Assembly: GCA_020747065.1 (NCBI GenBank)
Contig: JAGMVK010000002.1
Span: 1,054,001-1,118,000, forward strand
Direction: 5' to 3'
From: Cadophora sp. MPI-SDFR-AT-0126
Taxonomy: Eukaryota > Ascomycota > Leotiomycetes > Helotiales > Ploettnerulaceae
Length of the DNA stretch: 64,000 nucleotides
Shown here: positions 61,115 to 63,331 of the stretch, piece by piece
Layout of the letters: the number at the start of each line of letters is the position of its first letter
Position numbering within the stretch: the first letter of the stretch is position 1
Translations under genes and position numbers: made by a program
The notes under the pieces: model-generated
Database searches by the model: none
What the model was told of the DNA's origin: nothing
Seen by the model: only the letters and a program-made list of their open reading frames with translations

Positions 61115-62477
61115 GGTGTTGTCTGGTAAGGCTGAACTTGACGGTCAATGAATTGTAACGGTTTCAACTCAATTGTGTACCTGTGGACAATGCACATTCG
61201 TCGTAAATAATTGGAGAAGTACCGACTGAGCGATGAGTGCGAAGCATGAGGCACTGCTACATACTTATGAGAATAATTCGAGGTGTTTCCTTGGCGGAAG
61301 TCGAGGCACCCTATCCTGATGACCTGCCGCACCAAAATACAAGTGCATCACCCATTGGCTGCTTCTTGGAGGCTTCCTACGAGTGTCGTGTGGTTGGATC
61401 AAGCTGTGTAATCGCGATCCAATGGGGCCAATGAGGCATGACTGGAGGCACCCCGCGACGCCCTGTCCGGCCTCAAGCTGCTGATTCGATGGATATCGCG
61501 GTGAAAGCCTCGCGGTGTTCTGGAGTCCTGTGGAAGACCTCACAACCTGTTGATGCGGGAAACATCATTATCCTTACTGTCGACGGAACCATCAACGAGA
61601 ATGTGTAGAATTAGCAGAGCGAACAAGAGCGAAGGTCTAGATTGGTGGTGAAAATCACGTGCCATGCGAAGAGATTCTGGAGCTGGATCTGGAGGGTAAT
61701 CTTGATAGGTACAAGGTGCTTTGATGAGGAGATACGGATCTCTTATATATCTATAGCATCGATAACTTGGTGTGAAAGGGGTACAAATCAAACACTTTAG
61801 AGTATATTTCGTGCGCATCGTCACACGCAGGCGTTGGACTAAGCAAACCAAAGTGGAAACTTACTTCGTTCAAGAAATAAGAGTACTTGACACCGAGCCA
61901 AGTAATTTCTGAACCACTTTGTCTCAGAATCATGTATTACAAACAGAAGTTTCGTTGATTTCCTGGTACCCAAAACCTTTAAAATGATGTAGGTGACCTT
62001 GAGAGGGGCACGCCCAAACATTCTAGGTGAACTGGGATCGCATTTAAGCATAAAATCTAGCAGAAAAACTTCATTTGAACTTCATCTTATTCTGATGCGG
62101 TATTAGATATGCCGCTGAATTATATTGAGAATCAACAACTTTGAAGTGATGTACATGACTTGACATTCTCGTTGATCTCGCTTAAATCCAGCAGCACCTC
62201 TCTCCGGAAGAGTATGGGCAGAAGCCCTGGACAGCCATTAGAATAGCGATCTACAGCACGATGTCTAAACTCATACCATCCTCTCATTTCCATATTCCAA
62301 AATCCTCATACCTCCCCTTCACCCGCTTCAAGCTCACCCATAAACCTCCCCCTTCCCCCCCAATCCACAATCCACACTCGGCTTTCTCATTTTCCCGAAT
62401 CCAAAACCCACAAGGCCCACTTCCCTAACCCACGCATATAACAAAATAACAACTTTTCTCCCATCCAATCACATCTC
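61115..62477. other. Intergenic
   Basis: About 1.4 kb between the E.t1 gene promoter and the tRNA locus. Open frames up to 103 codons lack features. A TATA-like GCATATAAC lies about 45 bp before the tRNA, a usual position for RNA polymerase III genes in fungi. Confidence 0.5.
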
Positions 62478-62513
62478 GGGCACGTGGTTTAGTGGTATAA
62501 TATTCGCTTAGCA

Positions 62514-62535
62514 ATTGTTCAGAGAAAAGACAAAT
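62514..62535 (+). other. Canonical tRNA intron in the anticodon loop
   Basis: 22 nt between positions 37 and 38, the standard site cut by the eukaryotic tRNA splicing endonuclease. The limits follow from pairing of the anticodon stem on both sides. Confidence 0.8.
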
Positions 62536-62556
62536 TGTGAATGGTCCTGGGTTCGA

Positions 62557-62617
62557 GTAAGTAGTTCTTTCTTCCTTCTTCAATTGAAGAAAAGCAAAGT
62601 CTTAACAGAAAAACCAG
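62557..62617 (+). other. 61-nt intron-like insert in the T-loop
   Basis: Begins GTAAGTAG, has a pyrimidine-rich stretch, a CTTAAC branch-like motif 12-17 nt from the end, and finishes ACCAG, so it has every visible mark of a short fungal spliceosomal intron. It also contains a perfect 16-bp palindrome TTCTTCAATTGAAGAA (62576-62591). The limits are ambiguous by one base (62558-62618 also restores a 7-nt T-loop). Confidence 0.75.
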
Positions 62618-62632
62618 TTCCCAGCGTGTCCA

Positions 62633-63176
62633 TCGATTGAAACTTTACTTTTGCACTTTTTTAATTCGGATTTTGAGACTCGGCAAGCTTTTTCCCTTCT
62701 ATGCTGGCTGAAGACTCTTTTGATGGTTTGAGGTTTGAAGTGGAGACATGGAGTGGATGAGATCCACAACCCAGTGTCCAGCCTCCTCTCGCTTGATTTT
62801 TGCAATGCAACGAACGCAACGCAACGCAACATACCAGCAGACTCACGAGAAGTTGTAGATTAAGTGGAATATACGCCCTCATCTTTCAAAAATGTCTATA
62901 AAAACAATGAATTTCGCTGTTATGATACATGAAAAATGCATTTGAATATATGGTACGAGAGTTATATGGTACGTCACTTACCTATCCCTCTTATGGCATG
63001 CGAGCAATCGAGCTGTATAAGTATCATACAAGCAACGAATTATCTCTTCAGGTACATACCCTCGAATCGGTCGTTCCACGTGGGGACTGGAAAGCAGAGT
63101 GCGGATGACTGCATTGCTTCCGTGTCGAATCCAATACTTGGAAGTCCATCTCATCCACACCCTCAGGAATCATCAA
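62633..63176. other. Spacer between the two tRNA-Ala copies
   Basis: About 0.5 kb, AT-rich (especially 62880-62960). Small open frames carry no features. I did not find extended similarity flanking the two tRNA copies. Confidence 0.5.
62649..62662 (+). terminator. RNA polymerase III terminator T-runs
   Basis: A run of four T (62649-62652) and one of six T (62657-62662), 17-25 bases after the tRNA 3' end, as expected for a polymerase III gene. Confidence 0.6.
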
Positions 63177-63331
63177 CCGAGGTGTTCAAATTGGTATAAT
63201 ATTCCCTTAGCACTCATTCCCCACTCCCCTGAATGAACAAAACGTGAACGCTCCCGAGTTCGAGTAAATCCCTCTATCCTCTATCCAAAAATGCCAGACT
63301 AATTTCAAACAATTAGTTCCCAGTGCGTCCG
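63177..63331 (+). pseudogene. Decayed tRNA-Ala copy with inserts at the same two sites
   Basis: Shares GGTATAATATTC.CTTAGCA, GTGAA, TTCGAG and TTCCCAG in the same order with the copy at 62478. Anticodon AGC is kept (63209-63211). The first insert is 31 nt (63213-63243). The T-loop insert is 53 nt (63264-63316), starting GTAAAT, with ACTAAT before the end and finishing ATTAG. The acceptor stem no longer pairs, the T-stem has two mismatches and the A box is lost, so it is a pseudogene. The inserts differ in sequence and length from the first copy but sit at identical positions. Confidence 0.7.

Follow-up and report, generated by a model that had tools for sequence, protein, structure and literature searches.

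The analysed window, a stretch of 64,000 nucleotides from contig C12 of the 54-Mb genome of Cadophora sp. MPI-SDFR-AT-0126, carries a tRNA-Ala(AGC) gene composed of three exons (62478-62632, forward strand), interrupted once in the anticodon loop and once in the T loop (Table 1). Translation of the fumarase gene in the window gives the protein of this strain, with differences at intron edges only; the taxonomy assigns the strain to the Ploettnerulaceae within the Helotiales. The initial annotation had read a clean tRNA-Ala(AGC) from this DNA after removal of both inserts, and we could reproduce this reading: the resulting 72-nt form is called by ARAGORN and shows full stems and the G3:U70 pair. 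The GTAAGT, CTTAAC and CAG signals that it had pointed out in the longer insert are also present, in letters and coordinates. With the T-loop insert left in, the Ala(AGC) sequence gives no ARAGORN call, and in the whole window no tRNA was detected by ARAGORN and none by Rfam at gathering score. After removal of the insert all acceptor, anticodon and T-stem pairs are intact, i.e. the broken stems expected of a pseudogene are absent. The canonical 37/38 position is occupied by 62514-62535 and not by 62557-62617, which lies at 58/59 and whose ends cannot be slid by even a single base along the flanking exons.

Table 1. Features of the window (positions counted from its first base) and, in tRNA numbering, sites of the inserts in interrupted tRNA genes of the genome
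Feature	Location	Strand	Remarks
AAAATAAC element, candidate Pol III TATA-like	62443..62450	+	about 30 nt upstream of the window gene; ATAAC at -32
Exon 1 of tRNA-Ala(AGC)	62478..62513	+	nucleotides 1-37
Ordinary tRNA intron, 22 nt, at 37/38	62514..62535	+	anticodon-loop intron by ARAGORN after removal of the T-loop insert
Exon 2 of tRNA-Ala(AGC)	62536..62556	+	nucleotides 38-58; 3' end TTCGA
Spliceosomal-type intron, 61 nt, between nucleotides 58 and 59	62557..62617	+	donor, branch-like motif, acceptor
GTAAGT donor of the T-loop insert	62557-62562	+	
CTTAAC branch-like motif of the T-loop insert	62601-62606	+	
CAG acceptor of the T-loop insert	62615-62617	+	
Exon 3 of tRNA-Ala(AGC)	62618..62632	+	nucleotides 59-73; closes the T stem and acceptor stem
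T runs TTTT (62649-62652) and TTTTTT (62657-62662)	62649..62662	+	3' of the window gene; likely Pol III terminator
Decayed tRNA-Ala copy	~63181..63330	+	5' acceptor half and T stem damaged; no ARAGORN or Rfam call
T-loop insert of the decayed Ala copy, 53 nt	63264..63316	+	GTAAAT...CTAAT...TTAG; same site as in the window gene
Ala(AGC), window gene and L166	inserts at 58/59		
Ile(AAT), 3 genes	inserts at 6/7, 6/7, 5/6		
Arg(TCT)	insert at 6/7		
Ser(AGA)	insert at 69/70		
Met(CAT)	insert at 46/47		
Thr(AGT), 2 genes	inserts at 16/18 and 15/16		D-loop inserts
Asn(GTT), 3 genes	inserts at 25/26		
His(GTG), 3 genes	inserts at 12/13		
Pro(CGG)	3 inserts: 5/6, 27/28, 46/47		plus one 37/38 intron
Pro(AGG)	insert at 27/28		
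Ala(CGC)	2 inserts: 10/11, 21/22		
Glu(TTC)	insert at 52/53		
Leu(CAG)	insert at 12/13		
Gly(TCC)	2 inserts: 11/12, about 22/23		

A decayed Ala copy, absent from the initial annotation, lies about 0.55 kb 3' of the end of the intact window gene. The count of Ala(AGC) genes elsewhere in the genome, which had been proposed earlier as a check, gave a divided answer among the tRNA genes located: one copy, L013 (G000:C1:797618-797711), is free of a T-loop insert, its acceptor pair 6 being a U-U mismatch, and another, L166, is interrupted at the same site as the window gene. Because L013 exists, the window gene taken alone is not proven to be needed.

Inserts of this kind are widespread in the genome. 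Outside position 37/38 we found 26 of them, starting with GT and ending with AG, in 22 of 79 located tRNA genes, at about 15 positions and on 16 contigs; their boundaries were drawn on the premise of GT-AG ends, the exon freedom being at most 3 nt in the 22 inserts for which it was measured. One whole-genome DNA search missed L166, and the figures are therefore a lower bound, of at least 26 inserts in at least 22 genes. The 79 genes comprise 48 located by the Rfam tRNA model and 31 added through pattern matches and DNA queries, the gene of the window included; the model was scored on 62 of 1988 candidates only, which makes this less than a full census. Not counted among them are the decayed window copy, the 3' half gene L145, four tRNA-like loci (L129, L155, L156 and L174), L130 and L140, and those pattern matches that had no tRNA around them. 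A T-loop pattern matched 55 places, from which 17 forward-strand loci of 30 fetched were tested and 2 more read; C34:1231818, one of these places, proved to be the second Ala(AGC) gene. A looser B-box pattern performed near chance (167 matches vs 147 for the reversed pattern), and four places chosen by eye among its matches listed gave two copies of a Gly gene, one interrupted and one uninterrupted, together with an Ala(CGC) gene and one tRNA-like locus.

Genes were classed from ARAGORN output and by eye, and position numbers were assigned by hand, as were the identities of the Met, Leu, Gly and one Asn gene. The ordinary 37/38 intron is, by reading, present as well in 18 of the 22 interrupted genes, the exceptions being the three Ile genes and Thr L132. 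Empty sites are seen in uninterrupted paralogues of Ile (L060), Met (L021), Thr (L003) and Gly (L173), and uninterrupted copies are also present for Arg and others. After splicing in silico, 21 of the 22 genes yield an ARAGORN cloverleaf, Gly(TCC) not being called; for the hand-assigned Met, Asn c and Leu forms ARAGORN gives another amino acid and places the 37/38 intron differently. With the inserts left in, 13 of 20 genes tested are not called and 7 receive a wrong end or anticodon.

The inserts are 47-74 nt in length. The donor is GTAAGT in 14 of the 26, and the remaining 12 all conform to GTNNG; the acceptor is CAG in 22, TAG in 2 and AAG in 2. Ahead of it a branch motif stands in 25 of 26 inserts (CTAAC 17, CTAAT 6, CTTAAC 1, CTGAC 1), at 8-16 nt from the intron end, and only the Glu(TTC) insert, which has GTTAAT, fails this test. 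The combined donor/branch/acceptor test was passed by 25/26 tRNA inserts vs 25/400,000 random window segments of like length; the signals exceed chance. Four mRNA introns of the window, identified by eye in the fumarase and malate synthase genes, are 49-54 nt long, with donors GTACGC, GTAAGT, GTATTC and GTGAGT and CAG at every 3' end, and three of them pass the same test, the GTATTC one failing. The tRNA introns themselves appear ordinary on these letters; what appears new is their location in tRNA genes, their number and the implied dependence on the spliceosome. Group I and group II ribozyme cores are far longer than 74 nt, and such introns are ruled out by the 47-74 nt size; in addition, Rfam at gathering score matched nothing of the kind in the window.

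Inserts arising from faulty assembly or sequencing would have to be proposed for 22 genes on 16 contigs, where different inserts have common splice signals, which random errors would not give; nothing was found in favour of this origin, and we regard it as extremely unlikely. In the red alga Cyanidioschyzon and in nucleomorphs, D-arm and T-arm introns are known (PMC4090602, PMC9602550, PMC3978253), and the Cadophora inserts might likewise be ectopic introns cut by a relaxed tRNA endonuclease at bulge-helix-bulge folds, wherever in the tRNA these lie. The first of these organisms also corrects the statement of the initial annotation that no nuclear tRNA with a T-loop intron was known, as T-arm introns, with bulge-helix-bulge, are described for C. 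merolae (PMC9602550). The endonuclease is surely present in Cadophora, given the 37/38 introns in 18/22 interrupted genes. However, none of the 26 insert junctions reaches 9 of 10 bulge-helix-bulge pairs, the mean being 5.23 vs 4.90 for shuffled sequence, on a simple home-made score used without a positive control. As a caveat, many nucleomorph introns of Guillardia have no defined motif either (PMC3978253). Cutting by the endonuclease does not predict GT, branch motif and AG together, which 25/26 inserts have, and we consider it very unlikely as an explanation.

Introns of paralogous genes were compared in ten pairs, one Thr pair included. Core identity ranges from 0.54 to 0.70, in all cases above the shuffled means of 0.50-0.54; the cores of Asn b/c and His a/b exceed every one of the 300 shuffles, and that of one Ile pair ties with the highest shuffle. 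In their letters the paralogue introns show some common origin. Of introner-like elements, near-identical intron copies at many sites would be expected. One Ala(CGC) intron and the Leu(CAG) intron (L141, L154) have the 3' end CTAATAATGAACAG in common, and these two are perhaps also of common origin.

The spliceosomal-type introns of paralogues have diverged far more than the exons around them. As far as compared, exons are identical between Ile a and b and, 37/38 introns aside, among the three Asn genes and among the three His genes; L172, with 2 introns, and L173, with 0, are Gly genes with identical exons. Where exons did change, pairing was kept. Between the window Ala gene and L166, both with the 58/59 intron, there are four compensatory double changes, at acceptor pairs 5, 6 and 7 and at T-stem pair 50-64, in stems that enclose this intron; in Ile c, pair 2-71 is kept across the intron by a change from A-U to G-C.

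All Asn(GTT) genes found (3/3) and all His(GTG) genes found (3/3) are interrupted. The Asn DNA query gave three loci, matched only in pieces, which on reading all proved to be interrupted, and an uninterrupted Asn junction gave 0 matches in a whole-genome scan with a 31-nt pattern at up to 3 mismatches. The His query gave three loci as well, all read and all interrupted. A divergent uninterrupted gene may exist elsewhere, chiefly for His, which was covered by the query alone, since the DNA search missed L166 and the assembly is possibly incomplete. Nuclear genomes decode Asn with anticodon GTT and His with GTG, so the interrupted Asn and His genes should be needed.

These observations bear on the possibility that the interrupted tRNA genes died after entry of introns or intron-like elements and that other copies supply the cell. 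Such a course fits the decayed Ala copy next to the window gene, which has a like insert, and the existence of uninterrupted copies for Ile, Met, Thr, Gly, Arg and Ala; a review states that D/T-arm inserts occur mostly in one of many synonymous tRNA genes and are supposed pseudogenes (PMC4090602). A death of the genes does not agree with the Asn and His genes, all of those found being interrupted, nor with exons that were kept while introns diverged and with enclosing stems that were re-paired through double changes, and the decayed Ala copy itself demonstrates how decay looks in this genome. We find this course very unlikely. The initial annotation had left two readings of the window gene: either the spliceosome or some other activity takes the insert out, or the gene was killed. 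The recurrence in 22/79 genes, the interruption of every Asn and His gene found, the compensatory changes and the absence of bulge-helix-bulge favour removal by the spliceosome. The killed gene fits the decayed neighbour.

Features expected of RNA polymerase III (Pol III) transcription accompany the interrupted genes. An ATAAG, ATAAC, ATAGG, ATAGC or ATAGT starts 25-60 nt upstream of exon 1 in 20/22 interrupted and 17/21 uninterrupted genes tested vs about 10% of random window positions. As this AATAAG-like element lies upstream of exon 1, the expected element is present even with a first exon of five bases. The B-box consensus is GGTTCGANTCC. The initial annotation had considered the B box of the window gene broken in the DNA, which holds for 2 of its 10 fixed positions; at the other 8 GGTTCGAGTAA fits the consensus, and the box is mostly kept because the first bases of the intron supply part of it. 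In the Glu gene the acceptor CAG and the bases that follow re-form GGTTCAATTCC. The longest T run in the T-loop intron of the window gene is of 3 or fewer, and TTTT occurs in 1 of the 26 introns vs 5.5 expected by shuffling (P 0.011). The exception is Thr(AGT) L128, where TTTTT adjoins the donor within the intron and is likely a Pol III stop. All 26 of the 5S rRNA matches listed have 119-121 bases and hence no insert, though these too are Pol III genes.

Spliceosomal introns normally occur in Pol II transcripts, and it might be argued that some interrupted genes give rise to short spliced Pol II RNAs, perhaps with another purpose. The AATAAG-like upstream element common to uninterrupted tRNA genes and the avoidance of T runs within introns speak against this, and we consider it very unlikely. 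Very probably, the insert in the T loop represents a U2-type spliceosomal intron, and the tRNA-Ala(AGC) gene around it works and is transcribed by Pol III; introns of this kind number at least 26, spread over no fewer than 22 tRNA genes. The grounds established from the DNA itself are the anatomy of the genes, the splice signals, their recurrence, the pairing kept across inserts and the fact that none of the Asn and His genes found is uninterrupted.

The course of events may be pictured as follows. Pol III would make the interrupted precursor by means of the upstream AATAAG-like element and the internal boxes, stopping at the T run, and the spliceosome would remove the GT-AG introns early, ahead of the ordinary 37/38 intron. 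The rejoined tRNA body would then fold, its ends would be trimmed by RNase P and tRNase Z, and the tRNA endonuclease would take out the 37/38 intron in genes that have one. For introns in the acceptor stem, spliceosomal removal should precede trimming of the ends, and in genes with a 37/38 intron it should precede the endonuclease step; Pro(CGG), where three spliceosomal-type introns accompany one at 37/38, would depend on both splicing systems, one after the other.

The prevailing view is that nuclear tRNA introns are substrates of the tRNA endonuclease and ligase and that spliceosomes act mainly on Pol II transcripts. It is likely that all tRNA-Asn, all tRNA-His and many other tRNAs, here and probably in relatives, are made as Pol III precursors on which the spliceosome acts at up to three sites before the endonuclease, which would constitute a second, independent route of nuclear tRNA splicing. 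If true, essential tRNAs of a plant-associated Cadophora depend on the spliceosome, mRNA splicing is tied directly to translation, and an entire group of housekeeping RNAs relies on splicing without a Pol II transcript. The absence of Asn and His among the 48 genes located by the Rfam tRNA model would then be explained as well. Many intron gains at known positions would provide material on how introns arise.

Several other loci were noticed in the course of reading. L129, L155, L156 and L174 are tRNA-like, with about 64-83 extra bases in the anticodon region according to ARAGORN, and are without GT-AG ends; L155, L156 and L174 have TTTTGGATA in common. Short loci at L130 (three places) and L140 contain A-box-like and B-box-like stretches and T runs, give no Rfam match at E 0.1 and are possible Pol III transcripts. 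The U6 gene that was read (L170/L171, G000:C38:2220930-2221230) contains a GT-AG intron, GGTCAAT|GTAAGC...ACTAAC...CAG|TTGAAACG, and two further U6 matches on C38 lie outside the reading; a U6-like locus (L169, G000:C11:486540-486800) has a GT-AG intron after GCATGGC and probably a second one upstream.

For fission yeast and other fungi, Tani and Ohshima in 1989 and Canzler in 2016 reportedly described an mRNA-type intron in U6 snRNA. Like the Cadophora tRNA inserts, the fungal U6 intron places GT, branch and AG in a Pol III RNA; U6 is part of the spliceosome, whereas in Cadophora the interrupted RNAs are tRNAs, and a single gene contains as many as three such introns. The mRNA-type intron of fission yeast U6 is spliced out (PMC10484740). 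U3 and U6 were in 2017 the only small structured RNAs known so far as often interrupted by introns (PMC5832005), and rRNA genes of lichen fungi contain ectopic spliceosomal introns, which yeast removes from Pol I transcripts (PMC8527467). Fungal U3 snoRNA (PMC5832005) and lichen rRNA (PMC8527467) resemble the present case in that structured non-coding RNAs of ascomycetes are interrupted by ordinary spliceosomal introns, but these RNAs are not tRNAs. Among the literature matches listed, which covered open-licence papers without preprints, we found none that reports spliceosomal introns for tRNA genes.

According to PMC4090602, introns of eukaryotic tRNA genes are presumed to lie outside 37/38 only rarely, and genes with D/T-arm inserts are presumed to be pseudogenes; nucleomorphs and C. 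merolae are the exceptions. The ectopic introns of these exceptions are like those of Cadophora in their sites, which include the D arm and the T arm, in occurring several per gene and in standing beside a 37/38 intron (PMC9602550, PMC4090602, PMC3978253). The introns of C. merolae have bulge-helix-bulge and are attributed to the tRNA endonuclease (PMC9602550), whereas the Cadophora inserts have splice signals and no such motif was found at their junctions. The canonical 37/38 tRNA intron is represented in the window gene itself, by 62514-62535, from which 62557-62617 differs in position, length and signals.
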